20,728 nt of DNA from Nitrospina sp. (GTDB taxonomy: Bacteria; Nitrospinota; Nitrospinia; Nitrospinales; VA-1), in assembly GCA_003545625.1 (NCBI GenBank), contig DODH01000008.1:1-20728 (forward strand), in the 5' to 3' direction. The notes under the pieces were generated by a model. It was not told the DNA's origin, did not search any database, and was given only the letters and a program-made list of their open reading frames with translations. Of the stretch, positions 8,107 through 19,602 are shown piece by piece; position 1 is the first letter of the stretch, and each line of letters starts with the position of its first letter. Position numbers and translations under genes: made by a program.

Positions 8107-10821
8107 TTAGCCTACGTAAACACATTTACTGGCGGGGGTGCGGGTATCCATATTTTTTCCGCGTGAGGTGTGGTCATCAATTTCCGCGGCGCAACCGATC
8201 ATCCTGCCGAACAGGAAGGTCGCGAAACTGGCTGACTCGATATCCTCTTCTTTTATCTTTCCGTCATTGAAGTCGGCCCAGACGATCTTGAGCAGGATAA
8301 CGGCGATGACTGCATCAATATTCACGCAGTAAACATTTTTACTGACCTTGGCTTTGAACAGCGCCTCGACCAGGCTGTGGTAGAAATCGAGAAAAACGTT
8401 ATGGATACCTTTCTTCTTAAAAAGATCCTGCACAAAAACTTCCCGAGGGTCGTAGTTAACATCTTTCCCCTTAAATATCGGGTGATTGATACAAGGTAGT
8501 TTTGCGTAATCGAGATTGCCAATGGCTTTCTGTTTCTTTTTATAGTCGGCGTAGTTGTTCGCTACTTCCAGTGCCATGGCATCAAGATCAAATCCATGCT
8601 TGGCATCGGCGGCACTTTTAAGACCTTTGTCTTTAAAATTTTCCAGCAGGAAAGCCGCGGCTTCATAACCGTTCCCGCCATGGGCAAACCCGGTATGGGT
8701 AAGAAACCCGATAAAGGCTTTGTTAATCTGAACCCGTTGTGGTTGCTCCGGTCCGTCTGCACTGACCGCCCCTTTGCAACCCTGGGCCGAGATGGTACCC
8801 GGTCCATTGGTGATGATGAGCCCGAGCAAAACCTGGAACTCATAGAGTTCCGATTCGGAAGGCTGGCGACCCAGAAGTGTAACAAACGCCGTTTTAGTGA
8901 AACCGTAGTTGGGAATCAACTCTTCCAGCTTAACACCTGCAATACTGTCTTCGCCGTGCCGGTCCGCCGGGGCAGAAACGCCAACAATAGTGCTGTAAAT
9001 ACGCGAATACCAGGGCAGACGTGTCAATGTACCAGTGGAAATCTTTTTGCCTCTCAATGCGGCCCAACCCAAAGTGGTCCACACAGCGGCGAACAACGCA
9101 TCGGTAGAAAGTTTGCCGCCATTGACTTTTGCATAATCCTGCACAAACTGGATAAAAACGGAGTGACCGGCTTTATTGAGACATGCGGCCAGTTTTTCTG
9201 CACAGGGGTCTTCGCCTTCTGCAAGGAGCGCGTCTTTATACTTATCAGCTGATTTCAACTGCTCGGCATAATCGAATTTTTCACGCGCATCGTTCATCTT
9301 GCTGAACTGGAACAATTCCAGTAACGCTTTAGAAGCGTCCATGGCTTTTTGAACCATTTTTTTACCGCAGATCGCGACTGCCGAAGACACCACAGTGTTC
9401 GGGGAGTTGCCGTTTTCACGTGCCGCTTCCGCGGCGGCCAAGGTCGGCTGACCGTGCTGATTGACATACATATTCAGTACGATGTTGGCAATCTTTTCGC
9501 CATATTCACAGGTATAAACCCGGGTCAATGCGAACACCAGATTAGCTTCAAAAGTTTTCAGGGAAGCATCAAGAATCGAAGTCTTATGGATTTTGGAAAC
9601 CTGGGTTTTCGGGTCCATCATGGAAGCGCCGCTGGCATCCTTGAGTGTCTCCCGACGATGCTGGACCCCAACCATTTTATTCAAAACCTCAATCTGCTCG
9701 TTGTAAGGAGATGCCGCTTCAACAACTGGAACATCCAGTTCAGTTGGTAACAACAGTCCCTGATTATTACCAAACCAGCTTTTTAGGGACAGGCTTCCTC
9801 TTGGTTCAAAGTCAGGCTTTTGTCCGTTAAGCTCCATAACCTTGGTCACTGCTTCCGGGATATGGGCGATATTAGTTACCAGTGCGCCTTTTTTCGATAA
9901 AATCGGTTTTTGCGGGGTGTAGATACCATCCACGCCAAAATAGTCCATGAACCACTGTTCCTTGGCAAGGGCATCGTCTCCGGAACCAGCCAGTGACCCG
10001 GCATGACCACAGGCTTTAGTCAATCTTGCTTTCCAGCGACCCACCACACAGGCAACGATAGGTTTATCGGATTTGAGACCGTATTCATAATATCCACCCG
10101 GTTCACTGTACATGACCGCCACTTTTGAGCGATCGTCATTATCAAAGGCATGCAGGAACTCTTTCGCCCCATATTGAATATAAACGTCCTTACCACTGGA
10201 AACGGAAGTGGTGGTGCCCCACCCTGCCGTGGTCAAATAAACCGCAATGGTGGTAGTAAAATTTCCGGAGTTGGAGAACAGGGCCACCGTTCCCTTGACC
10301 AGAGATTCTTCTGGTGCATTGCCCCCCAGCGCACCGCCGAGACGGATGTGATTCCAGGCATCCGCAAGCCCCAGGCAGTTGCCGCCAAACAGGTCAACAC
10401 CGTTGGCCTGACAAATAGCACGCATAATACGGGAATCTTTGACCGACACTTTCTCAGTCAGAATGATGGCTTTCTCCAGATCCGGATTTTCGCGCACCGC
10501 TTCGGCGATTCCATCCTTCACGCCAGAGGGGGGTAAATAGACCACAACAGTGTTGAATTTATGACCCGCATCAAGGCCCTCCCTAATAGAGTTGTAAACA
10601 GGAATTTTCCCCGACTTGGTTGCTAGAGATTTACCAGATTTACCCGGCCCAGTGCCGAACACAATATTGCCACCGGAATAATCGTTGCTGATGGGGGTAA
10701 CTCCTGAGCTTTCTTTGCCCAGAATATTCAAGACCACTACCCTGTCTTCTTTGACTGCCAGTTCAGACAAGGAGTTAATGCCACAGTAAAAGGGGAAATC
10801 TCCCACACCTCGCTTATGCAT
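8107..10821 (-). CDS. aclA: ATP-citrate lyase alpha subunit, long (type II) form
   Basis: A 904-aa subunit that, with AclB, cleaves citrate with ATP and CoA to acetyl-CoA and oxaloacetate in the reductive TCA cycle. Residues ~25-330 are the succinyl-CoA-synthetase-alpha-like CoA-binding/ligase part, with GNCLGL, FSNSGNFTTT and the phosphohistidine motif GHAGS (His273). Residues ~600-904 are a citrate-synthase-like citryl-CoA lyase part, with FAHGGNGYEAA (712-721), NHPIFKGKD (779-787), NYDPR, NIDAVIAV (Asp836) and a C-terminal FGRMIG block like animal ACLY. About 290 extra residues relative to Chlorobium AclA sit mostly in the middle (~350-600). By eye, ACLY's conserved His in DHGP is Asn672 here (TNGPG). 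ATG 10821 has GGAGG nearby. Ends ~90 nt before a terminator. Confidence 0.93.
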   Translation of the reverse strand: MHKRGVGDFPFYCGINSLSELAVKEDRVVVLNILGKESSGVTPISNDYSGGNIVFGTGPGKSGKSLATKSGKIPVYNSIREGLDAGHKFNTVVVYLPPSGVKDGIAEAVRENPDLEKAIILTEKVSVKDSRIMRAICQANGVDLFGGNCLGLADAWNHIRLGGALGGNAPEESLVKGTVALFSNSGNFTTTIAVYLTTAGWGTTTSVSSGKDVYIQYGAKEFLHAFDNDDRSKVAVMYSEPGGYYEYGLKSDKPIVACVVGRWKARLTKACGHAGSLAGSGDDALAKEQWFMDYFGVDGIYTPQKPILSKKGALVTNIAHIPEAVTKVMELNGQKPDFEPRGSLSLKSWFGNNQGLLLPTELDVPVVEAASPYNEQIEVLNKMVGVQHRRETLKDASGASMMDPKTQVSKIHKTSILDASLKTFEANLVFALTRVYTCEYGEKIANIVLNMYVNQHGQPTLAAAEAARENGNSPNTVVSSAVAICGKKMVQKAMDASKALLELFQFSKMNDAREKFDYAEQLKSADKYKDALLAEGEDPCAEKLAACLNKAGHSVFIQFVQDYAKVNGGKLSTDALFAAVWTTLGWAALRGKKISTGTLTRLPWYSRIYSTIVGVSAPADRHGEDSIAGVKLEELIPNYGFTKTAFVTLLGRQPSESELYEFQVLLGLIITNGPGTISAQGCKGAVSADGPEQPQRVQINKAFIGFLTHTGFAHGGNGYEAAAFLLENFKDKGLKSAADAKHGFDLDAMALEVANNYADYKKKQKAIGNLDYAKLPCINHPIFKGKDVNYDPREVFVQDLFKKKGIHNVFLDFYHSLVEALFKAKVSKNVYCVNIDAVIAVILLKIVWADFNDGKIKEEDIESASFATFLFGRMIGCAAEIDDHTSRGKNMDTRTPASKCVYVG

Positions 10822-10866: not shown

Positions 10867-10943
10867 ATTGGGCATAGCCTGCTCAGCCGAGACAACTCTT
10901 TGCCAGCAAATGAAAGCTTTTGCCAGTTGGCCCCACGGCGAGT
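10867..10943. repeat. Dispersed repeat, copy A, between aclB and aclA
   Basis: A ~77-bp sequence sharing ATTGGG, an identical 17-mer (GCCGAGACAACTCTTTG, 10886-10902), AAAGCT and GCGAGT, in order and spacing, with copy B at 12734-12809. It ends 2 nt from the aclB stop codon, so it occupies most of the aclB-aclA gap. Function is unknown. It could affect RNA processing between the two subunit genes. Confidence 0.7.
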
Positions 10944-10945
10944 GG

Positions 10946-12214
10946 TTATATTTTGAGTTTCGCTTTAATTTCGTCCTTACCGCCATTTTTCATCCACTCG
11001 TTGATCGCCAGAGCGTAGTTGATGACTTCGGACATGGCACTGTCGTGCCCGAAGAAACGGTAGGGGATTCCTAATGAATCAAGAATATCGCGTAGATAGT
11101 TCATCCCGCGAATGACATTGGGTCCGCCTCGGCCAACCACAACAAACAGGGGGATCGGCCCGTGAGTCTGGAAGAACTCACGCAATCCATCACCCATGGC
11201 GCGGAACGTTTCATAAATATCGGTGTTATTGGCCTTGCCGCCGATGATGAACAGAACATTGGATTGCGGCAGCCAGTATTTGAAACTGATCTTGGAAATT
11301 TCGTTCATTTTTACGTAAGGGGGGTTACCGCCAAAGTCGGAAGAGATGGTCGCCTCTTCTCCCAGAAGTTCCGTAACCATGGCGTTGGCACCGCCGCCGA
11401 AAGTTGGCGCGGTGATGGTGCCCTTATCATTCATAACGAATACGTCACTCTGCCCCTGATAGGTGCGAAGCTGGTTGATCTCCTGCTCAAACTCAGAGTA
11501 GTCGGAAGCGAACAGATGCGCCGGAAGGTGCAAACGTTTCCAGGCCGGATCATCAAGATCAAAGGCGCATTTAAAATCGCAGGCTATCGGTGCCAGGCGT
11601 CCGCCTTTGCCCGGTTGCATGCGGATGGGGTTGAGCTCCAGCATCAACATGCCATAGTTATTATAAAGGTCCCAAAGCTTAGGGAGATTTTGAACCAATG
11701 GACTTATCAAAGCTGTGGGTGCGCCCAGCTCCATCAACGCATTGGAGACATGAAACGCTTTCAGTCCGGTCAAGGCATCAAACGGCACAACTTTTATTTT
11801 ATCGTCATCCAGTTCTTCGATATCAACCCCACCGTGGTGGGTGATGGTCATTATCGGGCAACGGTGTTCCGTGCTTTCGGAAATAGAAAAATAGACCTCG
11901 TAATCGGCAGGCACCGACCCTTCATAGGTGACACCGTCAGACTTTGCCTTAAGGTACCCATCTACATGTTCGGCAAAATACAGACGTTCCTTTTCTTTGA
12001 GAGCATCGGTAATATTGTCTACCCGACCCAGTAAACCGGACTTGCCTTTTTTACCAACCCCGCCTTTAAACAACGGCTTAATAAAAATCTGACCGTGCCG
12101 CTTGATCATGTCTTTGATTTCGTCGACACTGAGTTCAGGACCCCGGACTTCTGAATGAGGAAATTCCACGAGGTCTAATAATTTGCGTCCCCAAAGCATG
12201 CCAGTTATCTGCAT
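10946..12214 (-). CDS. aclB: ATP-citrate lyase beta subunit
   Basis: A 422-aa ATP-grasp and CoA-ligase-like subunit, equivalent to the N-terminal half of animal ACLY and to succinyl-CoA synthetase beta. Motifs: IFIKPLFKGGVGKKGKSGLLG (ATP-binding lysine region, ~43-63), THHGGVDIEELDDDKI (125-140), MLELNPIRM (191-199, metal binding), TFGGGANAMV (271-280), NVLFIIGGKANNTDIYETF (citrate-site side, ~319-337) and VVVGRGGPN. Length matches known AclB (~400-440 aa). ATG 12214 has AGGAGAAG just upstream. It is the first gene of the pair, with AclA 124 nt downstream. A strong promoter at 12360-12387 suggests high, possibly constitutive expression, as expected for a carbon-fixation enzyme. Confidence 0.95.
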   Translation of the reverse strand: MQITGMLWGRKLLDLVEFPHSEVRGPELSVDEIKDMIKRHGQIFIKPLFKGGVGKKGKSGLLGRVDNITDALKEKERLYFAEHVDGYLKAKSDGVTYEGSVPADYEVYFSISESTEHRCPIMTITHHGGVDIEELDDDKIKVVPFDALTGLKAFHVSNALMELGAPTALISPLVQNLPKLWDLYNNYGMLMLELNPIRMQPGKGGRLAPIACDFKCAFDLDDPAWKRLHLPAHLFASDYSEFEQEINQLRTYQGQSDVFVMNDKGTITAPTFGGGANAMVTELLGEEATISSDFGGNPPYVKMNEISKISFKYWLPQSNVLFIIGGKANNTDIYETFRAMGDGLREFFQTHGPIPLFVVVGRGGPNVIRGMNYLRDILDSLGIPYRFFGHDSAMSEVINYALAINEWMKNGGKDEIKAKLKI

Positions 12215-12359: not shown

Positions 12360-12387
12360 ATTGTATGACATTTCAGTATTTTGTCAA
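12360..12387 (-). promoter_or_regulatory. Strong sigma70-type promoter for aclBA with ~140-nt leader
   Basis: On the minus strand, TTGACA (12387-12382, perfect -35) and TACAAT (12365-12360, 5/6 -10) are 16 nt apart. Transcription would start near 12353, leaving ~140 nt of untranslated leader before aclB. The leader is AT-rich and includes a small inverted repeat (AATTCC 12292-12297 / GGAATT 12306-12311). No known riboswitch was recognised. Confidence 0.65.
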
Positions 12388-12733: not shown

Positions 12734-12809
12734 ATTGGGTAAGAACTCATCAAGCCGAGACAACTCTTTGTTCGCCGAAAAAAGCTGTGGCAAACTGAGT
12801 CCAGCGAGT
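12734..12809. repeat. Dispersed repeat, copy B, downstream of the CitE-like gene
   Basis: Same element as 10867-10943 and in the same orientation. The 17-mer is at 12754-12770, followed by AAAGCT and GCGAGT at matching offsets. It lies 54 nt beyond the stop of the CitE/HpcH-like gene, so both copies are in the 3' region of minus-strand genes. A small hairpin (ATGCCCC 12830-12836 / GGGGTAT 12841-12847) separates it from the stop. Confidence 0.7.
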
Positions 12810-12863: not shown

Positions 12864-13649
12864 TTATTTCAATCTTTTTTTCAGTTCTTTGATGCGGAAC
12901 TTTTCTTCATCGCGGGAGATGAATTTTCGGGAGCCATCGTGTTCGAGCATAAGAATCTCAAAACGTAACGCCGATTGCACCGCTTCACAATAGTCTCGAC
13001 CCGGCTCCACTTTGAATGTGATAACCCGTGTATTGAATTTATCTGGTCGGACTTGTTCCAGGAATCCATCAATGGTTTGGGGAGAAATGCCACCTCCCAC
13101 CGAAACGGGGATGTTTTTTCTTTGAATTTTTTTGACCACCTCCACCACTTGAGCCATGAAACTTGCGTCCCACCGGGATTTCTTCATAGACCCGGACAGG
13201 TCACTGCAACCAATGGTGATCTCGTCAATATATTTCGCTTCCGGATCCAAGAGGATGGAGTCCAGTTGGCGGACCGCCGTCTCGGTTTCAATATTGATCT
13301 GTTTTTTCAATCGTTCAAACTGCATGGGGGTGGTGAAGTCGCGCACAGCGGAAATAAAATTTTCCAAGCCATAAGGCGATTCCACCATAGGGGCGATCAG
13401 TCCATCAATATTCATAGGCAGGAGCTGTTTAATATCGTTGCGGGCGTTAGGTCCGCCAATCTTGACCGTAGCCGGCAGGATATCGACCTCTGCCCAGTAA
13501 CCGATCTGCTCGATACTCATGGCGGCATCTTCGGTCGACAGTTTAAGCCCGCAAGCCCCGAACTGATTTTTCAATTGCAGGAGGGCGGACCGTAGGCCCT
13601 GATCCGGTTTGACCGGCACCACCTGCAAAACCGTTTTTTTGGATTTCAC
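12864..13649 (-). CDS. HpcH/HpaI aldolase / CitE-superfamily protein
   Basis: A 261-aa TIM-barrel protein of the phosphoenolpyruvate/pyruvate superfamily, home to HpcH aldolases and CitE citryl-CoA lyase. Motifs: TVKIGGPNARND (61-72), IDGLIAPMVESPYGLENF (81-98), INIETETAVRQL (118-129; Glu121 in the usual metal-binding place), EITIGCSDLSGSM (143-155; Asp150, second metal ligand) and PVSVGGGIS. These suggest a working divalent-metal site. The exact substrate, probably an acyl-CoA or 2-keto acid, cannot be told. GTG at 13649 directly follows the TAA of the fusion gene (0-nt gap), with AGGGGGAA as ribosome-binding site, so the two are translationally coupled. Downstream lie repeats and then the acl operon on the same strand. 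Confidence 0.7.
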   Translation of the reverse strand: MKSKKTVLQVVPVKPDQGLRSALLQLKNQFGACGLKLSTEDAAMSIEQIGYWAEVDILPATVKIGGPNARNDIKQLLPMNIDGLIAPMVESPYGLENFISAVRDFTTPMQFERLKKQINIETETAVRQLDSILLDPEAKYIDEITIGCSDLSGSMKKSRWDASFMAQVVEVVKKIQRKNIPVSVGGGISPQTIDGFLEQVRPDKFNTRVITFKVEPGRDYCEAVQSALRFEILMLEHDGSRKFISRDEEKFRIKELKKRLK

Positions 13650-15902
13650 TTACCGTTCCCCCTTTTTACGGAATATGACAGAAGGATCAATACGACCGAT
13701 GGAACCACAGCCTGTCAGGATCATGGCTTTTTTCAATTCATTCAACTTTTCCCTTAAATAAAAGGAGACGCCTTCCTGACCAGCCCCAAACGCGGCGATG
13801 CAGACCGGCCGACCAATCATGACAGCATCGGCCCCCAGTGCCAGCATTTTGAGGATGTCGATGCCTTCACGAATACCTCCATCGACCAGGACTTTGATCC
13901 GGCCTCCCACGGCATTGGCAATTTCTGGAAGAACTTCCGCAGTCCCCGGCATATGGTCCATCACCCTTCCGCCATGATTGGAAACCACGATGGCATCGGC
14001 CCCGGCCTCTATCGCCGCCAACGCCGACTCCACATTCATGATGCCTTTTAATATGAAGGGAACTTTCAACTGCGATTTCAGTTCCTGCAATTCCGTGATC
14101 GTTTTGGGCCCTACCGCCTGGCCTTTCAGGGTCATGGTTTTAAACGAAGCGGCGTCAATATCAATTCCAACGGCAATGGCTCCTGCGTCTTCGGCAGCTT
14201 TGAACCGCTTAATGATATCGAGATTGTATTCCCGCGGTTTGAAAATGGGAATTCCCAATCCGCCACGTTTTTTAATGGCCTCCAATCCGATCAAATATTT
14301 TTTGGGACTCGCCCCATCGCCTACCATTCCCAAGGTGCCGCATTCGAGGCAACCGTCGAGGATAGCATCGGCATATTCTCTTTCGTCCATGCCTTCTGCC
14401 AAATTGGTTTCCATACCAGTGATGGGTGCCGCCAGAACAGGAAGAGCCAGCTTGTGTCCGAACAACTCCACCGAAGTATCAGGAGTTTTTATGTCATGTA
14501 TGGTTCTCAGGTTGACCTGATAACGAGCCAGCGCCGTCAGGTTTTCAGTGAACGTACTACCCGTGCCGATTCCGCCAATGCCCGGAACTTTACCTGCGCA
14601 TTCCACTCCATCACAAACTGTGCAAGCTTTGCAGGCGACATAAAATTTTCTCCGGGCGTTGTTGCGAATGATGTCCCAGGTCAAGTCATTGGGAACACCG
14701 ATTTCTATTTTCAAGGTTTCCCGGGCCAGATCGTTGATGCGAATGGCCTCCTCACGGGTTTTTGCAACGGTGATGACGTAACCCACTTTGCCCATATTGC
14801 TTCGGGGTTCTTCTGCCATATCCCCGGCTTCTTTCATAAGAATAATTTCTTTAACCCCTTTAATTTTGCGGGCTTCTTCTACTCCTCGAATGGAAAGGAT
14901 TTTTCCCGGCAGGGGAAACAGGGACCGTTCCGCAGACACCAGCGAGGTTTTCGGTTTCAGATCGGTGGGTGTTTCACCCAGAGCAACCTGGATCGCCGCT
15001 TTATAAAGGTTGACTCCCGTAGCCAACGGATAAGTGTAGGCCGACATCCAGCCCCCGCTCAAGCGGGCGGCAATCTCGATAATTTTTGGTCCTTCAGGTG
15101 TTATTTTGATATCGCCCTTGGCGGCCCCGATATCGATCCCCAACGCAGAAATAGCTTGTTTAAAAACTTCAACAGCTCTTGCCTGTTGTTTCTCTGGCAA
15201 GGCAGAAGGAAGCGTATGCCCGACTTCAACAAAATAGGGAGCCCGTTCGATGATCCGATCCGCCACTCCGGTAATATGAATAGTGTCGTCAAACACCAAC
15301 GCATCCAGACTCAGTTCAGGCCCTTCCATAAACTCTTCAAGGATCAGTTTTCCACTGATTGAGGCTTCTTTGGCCTCACGAAAAGCAGGAATCAGGTCAT
15401 CGAGACGTTCTATTTTCCGCACCCCACGAGCCCCCATATTATCGCAAGGCTTGATAACCAGAGGCAGGGGCATGTCTTGGACGGCCTTCTGGCATTCTTC
15501 CAGAGTCCATATAGGCCGAAAGTCCGGAATCGGCACCCCTCTTCCTTTTAACACCTGGCGCATCTTGATTTTGTCGGTGGCGCGTTCGGCAACCTCAAAG
15601 GGAATTCCCGGCAGGTTCAAAGCATCGGCCACGGCCGCAACCGTCTGGGACGCGTCTGTCCCCACGGTCATCACTCCATCAAGCGGGCAAGACCTGTGGA
15701 ACTGTTTGGCAATATTGACGGTAAGATTGATATTGCGAGTGCTGACCTCAATCGGGTAGTCGGCCAAAAGCATACCTTCCGCTTCCCGGTTATAGTCCGT
15801 CACCACAACCTTCAAGCCCATGGACTTGGCAGTCTTGATGGCAGGCACCTGGAACACCCCACCCCCAATTATCAGCAAATGTTTAGGACGTTTTATTGGC
15901 AT
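13650..15902 (-). CDS. ATP-grasp ligase fused to FMN-dependent alpha-hydroxy-acid dehydrogenase
   Basis: A 750-aa two-enzyme fusion. Residues 1-~410 are an ATP-grasp carboxylate-amine-ligase-like protein: pre-ATP-grasp start HLLIIGGGVFQ, VIKPCDNMGARGV (149-161), LILEEFMEGPE (186-196) and IIEIAARLSGG (274-284, metal-binding Glu). A linker has four cysteines spaced C-x2-C-x2-C-x4-C (424-435), possibly a metal or Fe-S site. Residues ~460-745 are an FMN-dependent (S)-2-hydroxy-acid dehydrogenase barrel: APITGME, FILKG, VVSNHGGRVMDH (639-650, catalytic His643) and VLVDGGIREGIDILKMLALGADAVMIGRP (phosphate site). The FMN half with its Cys leader resembles stand-alone clostridial proteins; the fusion is unfamiliar to me. 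ATG 15902 has AAGGA in front; the frame is also open up to 15938. Substrates are unknown; cytosolic. Confidence 0.85.
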   Translation of the reverse strand: MPIKRPKHLLIIGGGVFQVPAIKTAKSMGLKVVVTDYNREAEGMLLADYPIEVSTRNINLTVNIAKQFHRSCPLDGVMTVGTDASQTVAAVADALNLPGIPFEVAERATDKIKMRQVLKGRGVPIPDFRPIWTLEECQKAVQDMPLPLVIKPCDNMGARGVRKIERLDDLIPAFREAKEASISGKLILEEFMEGPELSLDALVFDDTIHITGVADRIIERAPYFVEVGHTLPSALPEKQQARAVEVFKQAISALGIDIGAAKGDIKITPEGPKIIEIAARLSGGWMSAYTYPLATGVNLYKAAIQVALGETPTDLKPKTSLVSAERSLFPLPGKILSIRGVEEARKIKGVKEIILMKEAGDMAEEPRSNMGKVGYVITVAKTREEAIRINDLARETLKIEIGVPNDLTWDIIRNNARRKFYVACKACTVCDGVECAGKVPGIGGIGTGSTFTENLTALARYQVNLRTIHDIKTPDTSVELFGHKLALPVLAAPITGMETNLAEGMDEREYADAILDGCLECGTLGMVGDGASPKKYLIGLEAIKKRGGLGIPIFKPREYNLDIIKRFKAAEDAGAIAVGIDIDAASFKTMTLKGQAVGPKTITELQELKSQLKVPFILKGIMNVESALAAIEAGADAIVVSNHGGRVMDHMPGTAEVLPEIANAVGGRIKVLVDGGIREGIDILKMLALGADAVMIGRPVCIAAFGAGQEGVSFYLREKLNELKKAMILTGCGSIGRIDPSVIFRKKGER

Positions 15903-16022: not shown

Positions 16023-17546
16023 TCATAAGTTTTTTTGGGGAACCGGCAGATAATAGGTTTTCAAGGTCTTGCCAAAAACCACCACCTTTTCGGAATGCAA
16101 TGATGTTTTCACATCCCCGGAACTCTCCAAAACGCGGTGGGTTTTGGGGCTCCCCACGAACGCAGTAAAATACTGCCCACTGTTGGAATAGATACTCCCC
16201 GGATGAGTTTGCTCAATCATCTTGTTTTCGATCAGCCATTGGGCCATGTTATCGGAGGCCCGGGCTTGCGCAACCTGGTAGTTCACCGCAAAAATGTTGG
16301 CCAAAACAAAAACCGCCACCGTGCCCCAACCAAGAACCGACCTGAAAAAAATGCGACCCTGGAGTTTATAAAAAACCAGGAAATAGAAAATTAGTGGAAT
16401 CAAAAATACCAGATATCTCTGGGCCGGGCGGGTGGCAGAACAAATCAATAAAAAGGGAAGACATACCGTCAAAATAAATCCCGCAACAGCATTTTTATTT
16501 TTGTTCGCCTCAAAAAAACAATCAAAAACGAGAAAACAAAAGAATATTCCCCCCAACCCTTTTACCAAAAAAACCAATGATCCGTTCAACAGCCCATCCA
16601 ATGGTCCGTAGTTCATTTCTCCACCCTGAAATCCAAACGGATTTATTCTCGTCCACACACCAAGCCCTAAACCCGCCACCAACAGGACCCACCATTTCTC
16701 CGACCAGTTTTTCCGCACACTGAGAATGCTGACGAGAGCAAGCGGCCCCAACAATATCCCCAGATAACTGGCATATAAGGAAAAGGTTTTTATAAAATTG
16801 GCGAACCCGAATTCAAGTTGGGAATGGTTGTCAGGCGCCAGAAAAAATCCATACTGGTTATAAATGACCCATAAATATGTAAAAAATCCCAGCAGAGGTA
16901 GTAAAAAAAACTGGCCGCATTTTTTGACCCACGCCCTATTGAATTGACACTCGTTCTGACACCAGAAAATATAAATAAAACCTGGGGCCATCAACAGAGC
17001 ATGATATTTAACCAATATAGCTGATAAAAAAATTACCGGCGACAGCCATCTATAAACAGGCTTTGCTTCACTTTTAAAAACCAAGGCGAAGCTCAACAGC
17101 AACAAACCAACCGGCAAGATATCGGCAGTGGCTCGACCTGAAAACAACCAGATCAAGGGAGAAAAGGTCACCAGGGCACACCATAAATGAAACTCTTTGT
17201 TATGGTCCGGCTTTAAAGAAGAGGTGAATACTGCCCCAGCACCTAAAATTGCCACTAAACCTGAAACCGATGCCAGGCGATAACTCCAGAAACCCTCGGG
17301 TTCCCCCATGAGGAAATGAAAAAGCGTGGAGAACCATACGTACCCCAGTGGATTGGCTTGCATGGAAAAATAATTGGACATGCCCGTTTCAGGATCAAGA
17401 AGGCTCTGCGTCGCCTGGGCGAATACATATTCCAAATTCACAAAGGGCGTATTGATATAAAAGGCATGCAGGATTACAGAAAGCGCGCTCCAAAAAATCA
17501 GCGCCGGGAAAACAGAATGATTCAAAGTTTTGGAGGGAAGATTCAA
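16023..17546 (-). CDS. Integral-membrane GT-C-type glycosyltransferase (GT39/ArnT-like)
   Basis: A 507-aa protein with about 11-12 hydrophobic segments and a short C-terminal periplasmic-looking domain (last ~90 residues). The pattern resembles dolichyl/polyprenyl-phosphate-sugar mannosyltransferase-type enzymes: NPLGYVWFSTLFHFLMGEPEGFWSYRLAS in the first loop region, GRATADILPVGLLLLSFAL, and ATRPAQRYLVFLIPLIF near the eighth or ninth helix. These use lipid-linked sugars to modify lipids, glycans or proteins at the membrane. The start is TTG at 17546; the frame upstream to a stop has no ATG or GTG and no clear ribosome-binding site, so the start is uncertain. Divergent from the next gene. Substrate unknown. 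Confidence 0.7.
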   Translation of the reverse strand: MNLPSKTLNHSVFPALIFWSALSVILHAFYINTPFVNLEYVFAQATQSLLDPETGMSNYFSMQANPLGYVWFSTLFHFLMGEPEGFWSYRLASVSGLVAILGAGAVFTSSLKPDHNKEFHLWCALVTFSPLIWLFSGRATADILPVGLLLLSFALVFKSEAKPVYRWLSPVIFLSAILVKYHALLMAPGFIYIFWCQNECQFNRAWVKKCGQFFLLPLLGFFTYLWVIYNQYGFFLAPDNHSQLEFGFANFIKTFSLYASYLGILLGPLALVSILSVRKNWSEKWWVLLVAGLGLGVWTRINPFGFQGGEMNYGPLDGLLNGSLVFLVKGLGGIFFCFLVFDCFFEANKNKNAVAGFILTVCLPFLLICSATRPAQRYLVFLIPLIFYFLVFYKLQGRIFFRSVLGWGTVAVFVLANIFAVNYQVAQARASDNMAQWLIENKMIEQTHPGSIYSNSGQYFTAFVGSPKTHRVLESSGDVKTSLHSEKVVVFGKTLKTYYLPVPQKNL

Positions 17547-17587
17547 ACGATCGGGCGCGTTAAGCTGAAGAGAAAAAATTCGATTGG

Positions 17588-17666
17588 TGCCAGATTCAAC
17601 ACCTGCAATCTGGCAGGCGCAAAATTAAGACAATTCTGCTAAACTAACCAGAGTTAAGATACTCTG
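17588..17666. promoter_or_regulatory. Two inverted repeats in the divergent intergenic region
   Basis: TGCCAGATT (17588-17596) and AATCTGGCA (17607-17615) form a perfect 9-bp stem. CAGAGT (17649-17654) and ACTCTG (17661-17666) form a perfect 6-bp stem. They lie between two divergent membrane-protein genes and could be operator sites or leader hairpins of the TTG-start gene. No convincing promoter boxes were found for either direction in 17547-17763. Confidence 0.35.
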
Positions 17667-17763
17667 TGATTTTGACCCGATTTGGCTTACAAATCAAGCC
17701 CCCAAATAACCACAAGTTTTCACCTGCCTTGTCGACAATGCCCATCTATAACCGTACTGATCA

Positions 17764-19602
17764 GTGAAACTTTTCTTTACCCGGTTGAACACTCTCAATA
17801 TTTTTATTGCCCTCGCCGGAATCATCTTTCTCATTTACGCCAACGGATTAAACACTCCCCTCCAGAGCGATGACGAAAGACATATTTATGGCACACCACA
17901 AATAACTAATGTGGATCATTACACCAACCTGTCAAACATCGGCTATCGCCATATCAATGGCCTGAGTTTTGCACTGAACTACCAATGGGGGCAGGACAAC
18001 CCTTTCGGCTACCACCTCTTCAATATTCTGATTCACATAGGCACCACCTTCCTGGTTTTTTTCATCGCTCAATTGACCATCGCGAAAGGAACGTCCTGGG
18101 GCGAAGACGCGGCACTGAAAATAGCACTGATCACTGCCCTCCTGTTTGGGCTCCACCCCATTCAAACCGAAACTGTGACCTATATCTCAGGCCGACCCGG
18201 TGGTCTGGCCGGACTGTTTTACTTTTTATCTTTGTTGTTATTTATTCTTGCAAGCTTGAAGGGTTCGAGAGTTCTCCGTTTCGCTTTCTATCCCCTATCC
18301 CTGATAATTTTTTTCATGGCAGTCCTGAGCAAGGAATCTGCTATCACCCTGCCTGCAATAATTATCCTTTATGACTTATGTTTTATGCAGGGACAAAAAT
18401 GGCCTCCGTTTCGTTCGCGGCTCGGTTTTTATTTCTGTTACCCGGCTCTGGCCGGGGCCGCTTTTTTCCTTTCTCCTAACGTGTTCAGCGTTATTCAAGG
18501 GTTTTTCAAAAAAATCCACCTCACCCTTGGACTGGTACAGTTAGACCTTCTCAAACACCCGCTGAAACTATTCCTTTTCCCGGTCAATCTGACCTTTGAA
18601 TACGATTTTCCAACCCAGGTAAGCTGGGTCTCGCTTCTGGTTTCCATCGCGATCATTCTTTTATGTGTTTTTCTGGCCTTTAAAAAATTCTATATAAAAA
18701 GTTCAGTTTTGACGTTCTGTGTTTTATGGTTTCCTCTGACCATCGCTCCAACGAATTCGTTCATGCCACGCACCCATTTATTCAGTGAACGCAATATGTA
18801 TATCCCTTCATTCGGACTCTGCCTGTTCTTTGCAGTCCTCCTCTACCTGATTGCGGACAAAGCCAAAAAGCGCGGCATGATATGGGGAGCCGTCCTGTTA
18901 ATATTTATTTGTACTGCTATCATGGTCGTTAAGAGAAATCAGGTTTACGCATCACCTTCGACTCTCTGGGCCGACACCTTCAAGAAATCTCCCAACAAAT
19001 TGAGCATCGGGAAAACCCTGAGCATCCATTATTTAATGGAAGAAGATTATGCCAACGCGTTGACACCGTTAAAGGCGTTATTGCAGATCAATCCCCATCT
19101 CTATGACGTGCATCAGAACCTCGGCATCGCCTACAAAAGTCTCGGAAACTTTCCCGAAGCCGAAAAACATTTTAAGGAAGCCATACGCATTGAGCCTACG
19201 GACCCCAACTCCCATTTCAACCTCGCCAGCCTTTATGGAAATCTGGGGCAATTCGTCCAGGCAAGCCGGGAATTTGATCAGGCCTCTGCGCTGTACAAAA
19301 CCACAGGCAAATATCCACCCCGACAATTTTATTCCGATAAGGCCCGAGCCCATAACCAGGCAGGAATCGAACTGATACAGTCGCAAAAGTTCGAAGAAGC
19401 ACTCATCCAATTTGAAAAATCGATCCGGCAAAATTCAAAACTCCTGTCAGCCCGATTCAACCTGGCAAAACTGTTGTTGGAATTCAAAAATGACCCAGAG
19501 AAAGCCAAAACCCATCTTCAGGCAGGGCTCGCGCTCAATCCCACTCCCGAGCAAATCCAAACTTTAAGGGACCTGTTAAAGCAAATAGAGATCAAGAATT
19601 GA
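17764..19602 (+). CDS. TMTC-like membrane protein with C-terminal TPR repeats
   Basis: A 612-aa protein: ~10 transmembrane segments (residues ~10-400), then a soluble TPR region (~412-610) with motifs such as DVHQNLGIAYKSLGNFPEAEKHFKEAIRIEP and AHNQAGIELIQSQKFEEALIQFEKSI. This is the layout of TMTC/PMT-like 'tetratricopeptide O-glycosyltransferase' proteins. The acidic pair in PLQSDDERHIYG (Asp36-Asp37) in the first loop matches the GT-C active-site DD/DE position. A role in protein O-glycosylation or another lipid-sugar-dependent transfer is inferred. GTG 17764 is the first start after a TGA just upstream; the ribosome-binding site is poor. It heads a run of small genes ending at a terminator near 20276. 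Confidence 0.75.
   Translation: MKLFFTRLNTLNIFIALAGIIFLIYANGLNTPLQSDDERHIYGTPQITNVDHYTNLSNIGYRHINGLSFALNYQWGQDNPFGYHLFNILIHIGTTFLVFFIAQLTIAKGTSWGEDAALKIALITALLFGLHPIQTETVTYISGRPGGLAGLFYFLSLLLFILASLKGSRVLRFAFYPLSLIIFFMAVLSKESAITLPAIIILYDLCFMQGQKWPPFRSRLGFYFCYPALAGAAFFLSPNVFSVIQGFFKKIHLTLGLVQLDLLKHPLKLFLFPVNLTFEYDFPTQVSWVSLLVSIAIILLCVFLAFKKFYIKSSVLTFCVLWFPLTIAPTNSFMPRTHLFSERNMYIPSFGLCLFFAVLLYLIADKAKKRGMIWGAVLLIFICTAIMVVKRNQVYASPSTLWADTFKKSPNKLSIGKTLSIHYLMEEDYANALTPLKALLQINPHLYDVHQNLGIAYKSLGNFPEAEKHFKEAIRIEPTDPNSHFNLASLYGNLGQFVQASREFDQASALYKTTGKYPPRQFYSDKARAHNQAGIELIQSQKFEEALIQFEKSIRQNSKLLSARFNLAKLLLEFKNDPEKAKTHLQAGLALNPTPEQIQTLRDLLKQIEIKN

Follow-up and report, generated by a model that had tools for sequence, protein, structure and literature searches.

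In a 20,728-nt stretch from the genome of a marine nitrite oxidizer, Nitrospina sp. (contig DODH01000008.1 of assembly GCA_003545625.1; we refer to the whole stretch as the window), two abutting genes encode a fusion of an ATP-grasp ligase with a flavin mononucleotide (FMN)-dependent dehydrogenase and a partner protein with an aldolase-like barrel. We propose that this pair probably belongs to flagellin glycosylation, where it would make an acyl group and attach it to a nonulosonic acid with which flagellin is decorated. What we observed directly, and what the proposal builds on, is the domain content of the proteins, the fact that the genes are paired, their co-occurrence outside the phylum with genes for PF01973 (Maf-type), PseG, NeuB, and flagellin, and their independence of AclA. 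A preliminary description of the window had suggested a three-activity module near the reductive tricarboxylic acid (TCA) cycle. The pair does appear to be one module, but our results do not support that place in metabolism.

We surveyed 77 Nitrospinota genomes, 31 of them good, and 310 genomes from outside the phylum (387 drawn minus the 77 from Nitrospinota, assuming that all 77 were in the draw). The presence/absence sets were entered by hand from search tables. The full fusion is found in 15 of the 310 outside genomes, from 8 families; this includes the fusion of G241, which is cut by a contig end, and excludes genomes with only the ATP-grasp half (G304 and G379) or only the FMN half (G098, G189, G196, and G326). 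Our protein searches cover the best 120 of 205, of 6976, and of 1208 matches, and among the 120 matches listed, the fusion proteins with a named source outside Nitrospinota belong to Brachyspira, Leptospiraceae, and other Spirochaetota. The partner is found at E ≤ 1e-60 in 11 of the 310 genomes, and all 11 contain the fusion (Fisher p = 3e-17; this value and the one below are inflated by the shared descent of the genomes). Because of this co-occurrence, we consider the fusion and the partner to be one module. Weaker matches to the partner are found in 4 more outside genomes, 2 of which have the fusion.

The fusion also keeps company with PF01973, the MptE-like family of Pfam. The use of PF01973 as a marker for Maf in bacteria is our own reading; it is backed by matches to the NCBIfam model FlagModPseD for L105, L109 (weak), L112, and L147, all of which are far below the model's cut-off of 670 bits. 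With presence defined as E ≤ 1e-15 (unless stated otherwise), PF01973 is found in 54 of the 310 outside genomes, including all 15 with the fusion (Fisher p = 7e-13).

In seven of these 15 genomes (G223, G360, G094, G241, G144, G285, and G209; G360 and G241 mostly by eye), the fusion or the partner is beside PseG-, NeuB-, CMP-transferase-, Maf-, or flagellin-type genes, and in the other eight it is not. Many of the neighbors were named by eye, and part of them were checked by family scans. G223 and G360 share the order PseG-like gene, partner, fusion, Maf, and in G360 a cytidylyltransferase is seen before the PseG-like gene. G223 also has NeuB and a FliS-like open reading frame (ORF) near the pair; its PseG scores over the NCBIfam cut-off, and its NeuB and Maf score over the Pfam cut-offs. 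In G094, the partner and the fusion come after a cytidylyltransferase whose second half is weakly PseG-like, and an ORF similar to that cytidylyltransferase precedes the pair in G241. The partner follows a PseG-like gene in G209 and G285 (87 and 153.3 bits, respectively; the cut-off is 153.55). In both of these genomes the fusion is apart from the partner, and it is beside flagellin in G209 and beside Maf in G285. In G144, the fusion lies between the partner and Maf. The partner adjoins the fusion in 8 of the 15 genomes, and it is the only such neighbor seen in G252, G387, and G105. In addition, a plasmid locus of Solidesulfovibrio that is annotated with pseB, pseC, and pseF holds an ATP-grasp gene that is 37% identical.

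Within Nitrospinota, the fusion is found in 38 of the 77 genomes (after dropping G060, which has a 30%-identity, ATP-grasp-only match, and adding a fragment from G010), AclA in 60, and PF01973 in 50. As the fusion recurs in this many genomes, usually with the partner directly after it, the pair is not a product of chance or of an assembly join. PF01973 is present in 37 of the 38 fusion genomes versus 13 of the 39 others, and the sole fusion genome without it, G034, is 76% complete. Among the 31 good genomes, the fusion is found in 18. All 18 contain PF01973, which is missing from 11 of the 13 good genomes without the fusion. The two fusion-free genomes with PF01973 are G056 and G019, and G019 has the partner gene at the start of a contig. 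Genomes related to Nitrospina carry Maf genes, flagellin arrays, and NeuB loci away from the pair, and one Maf-type gene follows hook-type genes (named by eye; the family was scanned). In G018 (L137:4242-14172), an array of flagellin-like genes is immediately preceded by a cytidylyltransferase and followed, a short distance on, by a Gfo/Idh oxidoreductase. By eye, this oxidoreductase resembles one near an ATP-grasp gene of Glassbacteria (L043:8396-9445).

The earlier suggestion was that the three activities feed or repair the reductive TCA cycle and work with the adjoining ATP-citrate lyase. Indeed, the pair and aclBA are on the same strand, the order fusion-partner-aclBA is found in several families of the order, and 23 Nitrospinota genomes (24 with G010) have the fusion and aclA no more than 10 kb apart on a single contig. 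This synteny counts against our flagellar assignment. However, at E ≤ 1e-5, AclA was found in none of the 15 outside genomes with the fusion beyond SucD-like stretches of 155–283 residues (in 7 of the 15); AclB was not searched for. AclA is present in all 31 good Nitrospinota genomes, including the 13 that lack the fusion (the partner is present in one of these, G019). In G026 and G030, the pair and aclA are on different contigs, with over 15 kb of flank around the pair, and in G013 and G006 aclBA is intact beside a ComM-like neighbor and the pair is absent. Given these separate contigs and absences, we consider the synteny of the pair with aclBA to be old but dispensable for acl. There is also a promoter-like site between the pair and aclB, which hints that acl might be a separate transcription unit; it is a consensus match only, and the scan found 6 sites where 4.5 were expected in the scanned stretch. 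Overall, the link to ATP-citrate lyase is largely refuted already, and a role in the reductive TCA cycle is very improbable. A survey of the fusion across genomes had been suggested as the check on the preliminary description: co-occurrence held for the partner and failed for aclA. The description had itself named wide occurrence away from acl genes as grounds for dropping the link, and this is what the survey showed.

The fusion itself is as first described, a 750-residue protein with ATP-grasp and FMN enzyme parts, as confirmed by the ORF and by Pfam matches to FMN_dh (233 bits; cut-off 24.9), LAL_C2 (67 bits; 29.4), and ATP-grasp_4 (56 bits; 27). The ATP-grasp and LAL_C2 domains span about residues 1–400 and the FMN_dh fold about residues 410–750. 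The first half has the ATP-grasp domain, the LAL_C2 domain, and the fold of the LAL-type ATP-grasp enzymes, and it aligns to the solved structure 3vot with a TM-score of 0.87–0.89 (normalized by target length). It shares this fold and the LAL_C2 domain set with LAL-type ligases such as BL00235 (3vot) and RizA (4wd3), but they are just 20–25% identical, and only the fusion carries an added FMN domain. By its modeled fold, we consider the first half to be a putative carboxylate-amine ligase.

The second half matches FMN_dh (PF01070) and retains the Lys/His/Arg set. Along with this lysine, the His and Arg of the SNHGGR motif presumably have catalytic roles in the FMN-dependent alpha-hydroxy-acid dehydrogenases. 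The lysine, the SNHGGR-type motif, and the C-terminal half are shared with LldD and lactate oxidase. In contrast, the canonical N-terminus of LldD is replaced by a segment with four cysteines (Cx2Cx2Cx4C), which is possibly an iron-sulfur or other metal site, and the FQLYV stretch of LldD is gapped or missing in the fusion. In our alignment A2, the four cysteines are present in 36 of the 38 proteins that reach into the FMN half. The two exceptions, P0306 (from Brachyspira intermedia) and a similar protein, P0309, lack SNHGGR as well. The exact SNHGGR is also missing from the L112 and P0349 copies, and P0299 ends before the motif. In P0306 and P0309 the FMN half is full-length despite lacking these motifs; judging from the alignment, it is probably a pseudo-enzyme domain that has been retained in the fusion.

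The preliminary description assigned the partner to the CitE/HpcH superfamily, with the metal-site Glu and Asp kept. The two residues are indeed there, as Glu121 and Asp150; in YfaU and GarL, the aligned positions are a Glu and an Asp that we take to be metal-binding. The closeness to CitE found less support. The partner has the barrel fold (its predicted structure has a predicted local distance difference test score, or pLDDT, of 91.8), and it barely exceeds the Pfam cut-off for HpcH_HpaI (PF03328; 28.2 bits versus 25). It had no match in NCBIfam at E ≤ 0.001. A profile of the partner alignment against the Protein Data Bank found HpaI-, YfaU-, HpcH-, and GarL-type aldolases (best E = 5.5e-8) and no citryl-coenzyme A (CoA) lyase at E ≤ 0.1. 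In the fold comparison, HpaI ranked first, but the tie was broad and included CLYBL and pyruvate kinase. So, despite the tie, the partner resembles the 2-keto-3-deoxy-acid aldolases more than the citryl-CoA lyases in both profile and predicted fold, and the citryl-CoA reading is weak.

The partner differs from the HpcH/HpaI, YfaU, and GarL aldolases as well. Its identity to them is 17–22%. The DGEH motif of the aldolases is STED in the partner, with the His replaced, and there is no Arg in the VIRP/VVRV column of the aldolase alignment. The invariant Lys63 is adjacent to this column, in a gapped stretch. The substrate-binding Arg and the catalytic His are, we presume, the defining residues of the class II pyruvate aldolases of the HpcH/HpaI type. 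As neither is kept, we consider the partner to be a divergent subfamily. A second group of the partner family, with the motif KAEFEAEG or KAEYENEG (L065:7914-8684, L066:7556-8329, L162:9662-10477, and L163:9744-10523), is found in what appear to be other surface-sugar loci, beside ORFs that resemble nucleoside diphosphate (NDP)-sugar enzymes, thiamine pyrophosphate (TPP) enzymes, or hydroxy-acid dehydrogenases (by eye).

Could the fusion function only in general metabolism? The FMN half would then be a four-cysteine dehydrogenase that serves energy metabolism by acting on lactate or a hydroxy acid, and the ATP-grasp half would be an unrelated amino-acid ligase. Among the best 120 of 6976 matches, stand-alone homologs of the FMN half, 52–59% identical, are found in many anaerobes, including Clostridia and Thermodesulfovibrio, and several are named alpha-hydroxy-acid oxidizing protein. 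These four-cysteine proteins (L122, L123, L124, and L051) had no constant neighborhood in the loci we read, which would suit a general role. On the other hand, all 15 outside genomes with the full fusion contain PF01973, while only one of the four genomes with the stand-alone FMN protein (G196, and not G098, G189, or G326) has PF01973. Also, the fusion persists in Brachyspira despite the loss of the FMN motifs. A purely general role is quite improbable.

Alternatively, the pair might modify lipopolysaccharide or capsule, with the ATP-grasp half amidating an outer-membrane sugar acid or amino sugar and no tie to the flagellum. Relatives of the ATP-grasp half with 38–42% identity are found in capsule loci of a Parabacteroides and of an Enterococcus plasmid, distant paralogs of the partner are found in other glycan-type loci (by eye), and the window contains glycosyltransferase-like ORFs (by eye). 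Against this, the presence of the full fusion follows that of PF01973 in two separate samples, and in some genomes the fusion is beside Maf, FliS-like, or flagellin genes. We consider this alternative unlikely, although the relatives in capsule loci do weigh against flagellin glycosylation.

So do several other observations. Reading the ORFs of the window by eye, we saw no gene for Maf, NeuB, PseG, or flagellin, nor did we see any such neighbor in G110, G255, G346, G240, or G093. Most of the outside genomes with PF01973 (39/54) lack the fusion, and PF01973 also matches archaeal control genomes. The contrast within Nitrospinota depends on the threshold: at E ≤ 0.001, PF01973 is found in 23 of the 31 good genomes, including 5 of the 13 without the fusion. 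(In G045 and G049 the additional matches are partial, covering about 80 positions; those in G022 are under the cut-off.) NeuB (E < 1e-30) tracks the fusion less well, as it is found in 17 of the 18 good genomes with the fusion (not in G033) and in 6 of the 13 others. The genus g7 has the fusion without an adjoining partner. Finally, the FMN half is degenerate in the Brachyspira-type fusions. Because of the marker-free window, the 39 genomes with PF01973 alone, the effect of the threshold, Brachyspira, and the relatives in capsule loci, we hold the parts of the proposal with different confidence. A setting in flagellin or nonulosonic acid modification is highly probable; that the pair ligates an acyl group to a sugar has about an even chance; and the exact chemistry and order of steps, which we read from the folds, are doubtful.

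If the pair does act in flagellin glycosylation, then the acyl acceptor would be an amino nonulosonic acid (of the pseudaminic or legionaminic type) or its nucleotide-sugar precursor. From its fold and nearest families, the partner might first join a pyruvate-like donor to a short aldehyde through a new carbon-carbon bond, which would yield a 2-keto-3-deoxy sugar acid. The FMN/four-cysteine domain, with its retained Lys, His, and Arg, might then set the redox state at C2 (keto or hydroxy). The ATP-grasp domain, given its LAL-type fold, might convert the carboxylate to an acyl phosphate and then to an amide with the amino group of the sugar, which would replace or extend the usual N-acetylation. 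Last, Maf-type transferases would place the acylated sugar on flagellin. In its most specific form, we speculate that the pair is a self-contained acyl-maker that unrelated bacteria have in common: pyruvate and a C3 aldehyde would give 2-keto-3-deoxyhexonate, the FMN/Fe-S domain would reduce C2, and the fused ATP-grasp domain would link the product as an amide to the free amino group of a sugar of the pseudaminic type, so that spirochaetes, Nitrospinota, and several further families would have polyhydroxy-hexanoyl nonulosonic acids. This version is rather unlikely to be correct as a whole.

The flagellin glycan of Treponema denticola reportedly (Kurniyati et al. 2017, Mol Microbiol) has a mass of 450 Da and a 2-methoxy-4,5,6-trihydroxyhexanoyl group at N7. 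Such a group has a 2-keto-3-deoxyhexonate skeleton, as would be expected if an aldolase of the HpcH/HpaI type acted together with a C2 reductase and a carboxylate-amine ligase. We know of no such acyl glycan in Nitrospina.

In Shewanella oneidensis, one study reports that sfmABCDE, including the ATP-grasp gene sfmE, contributes to flagellin modification and to the final mass (PMC3765264). The set comprises a NeuB-type synthase, a TPP enzyme, a predicted reductase, a methyltransferase, and the ATP-grasp protein, with a Maf gene nearby; the flagellin sugar is most likely a mono-acetyl nonulosonic acid with a further moiety of 236–264 Da; and the sfmE deletion strain still swam but had reduced spreading (PMC3765264). 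This is an ATP-grasp protein in a nonulosonic-acid-type modification of flagellin, as we propose for the fusion. Unlike SfmE, which we liken to the fusion by its description in that text, the Nitrospina ligase is fused to an FMN/four-cysteine domain, and its partner is a presumed carbon-carbon bond enzyme of the HpcH/HpaI fold. By analogy with Shewanella, we infer that the ligase may amidate an acyl group on the sugar, while the partner builds the skeleton and the FMN domain sets its oxidation state. Other papers describe an N-acylation step in the known pathways for pseudaminic and legionaminic acid (PMC13317340) and an ATP-grasp gene in the type B flagellin locus of Clostridium difficile (PMC5207246). 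The Nitrospina gracilis genome paper treats the divergent subunits of ATP-citrate lyase, and the pair is not mentioned in its accessible text (PMC3578206). In the literature available to us, our searches found no paper on a fusion of ATP-grasp with an FMN-dependent dehydrogenase, or on ATP-grasp with an alpha-hydroxy-acid oxidizing protein, or linking HpcH, flagellin, and nonulosonic acid.

Features of the gene pair and its surroundings in the window
Feature	Position	Strand	Remarks
Fusion gene	13650..15902	minus	ATP-grasp/FMN_dh fusion; 750 aa from ATG at 15902 (ORF call)
ATP-grasp half	14703..15902	minus	LAL-type ligase; closest solved structure is L-amino acid ligase BL00235 (3vot)
FMN half	13653..14669	minus	52–59% identity to stand-alone proteins (among the best 120 of 6976 matches)
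Four-Cys motif Cx2Cx2Cx4C	14598..14633	minus	Residues 424–435; not in E. coli LldD
SNHGGR motif	13965..13982	minus	His/Arg motif common to LldD; SNHGAR in lactate oxidase
Partner gene	12864..13649	minus	HpcH/HpaI-fold, aldolase-like; 261 aa from GTG; abuts fusion
Lys63	13461..13463	minus	Invariant in 16- and 21-member family alignments; beside the aldolases' Arg column (gapped stretch)
Glu121	13287..13289	minus	Aligns with Glu of YfaU/GarL
Asp150	13200..13202	minus	Aligns with Asp of YfaU/GarL
Promoter-like TTGACA-16-TACAAT	12360..12387	minus	Upstream of aclB; 11/12 consensus match
aclB	10946..12214	minus	ATP-citrate lyase small subunit; neighbor, outside the module
aclA	8107..10821	minus	ATP-citrate lyase large subunit; neighbor, outside the module

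As had been noted, the ORFs place the two genes upstream of aclBA on the same strand with a spacing of 0 nt: the TAA of the fusion (13652-13650) runs directly into the GTG of the partner (13649-13647). AGGGGG is found 8 nt before this GTG, within the 3' end of the fusion gene, and the two genes are translationally coupled. An alternative GTG start for the fusion, 36 nt further upstream, would give 762 amino acids. The gap from the partner's stop to the start of aclB (12214) is 649 nt. The closest named relatives of the fusion (90–96% identity) are from assemblies labeled Nitrospina or Nitrospinota/Nitrospinae, and the nearest comparison genome, G001, has 32% of the window's sampled words in common. 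Upstream of the fusion (16023-19602), there is a membrane glycosyltransferase-like gene and a membrane tetratricopeptide repeat (TPR) gene (by eye); the TPR gene is kept in many relatives' loci and the glycosyltransferase-like gene in fewer. The gaps flanking aclB contain a 39-nt direct repeat that is 77% identical (10885-10923 and 12753-12791), and such two-copy families can arise by chance.

As a caution, synteny with aclBA that is conserved across an order did not mean a common function. For an uncharacterized fusion enzyme, our results replace a guessed role in carbon fixation with one in flagellin glycosylation that can be tested, and they offer a candidate route to the unusual acyl groups of flagellar sugars. 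We predict that nitrite-oxidizing Nitrospina with this pair would carry acyl-modified nonulosonic acids on their flagella.

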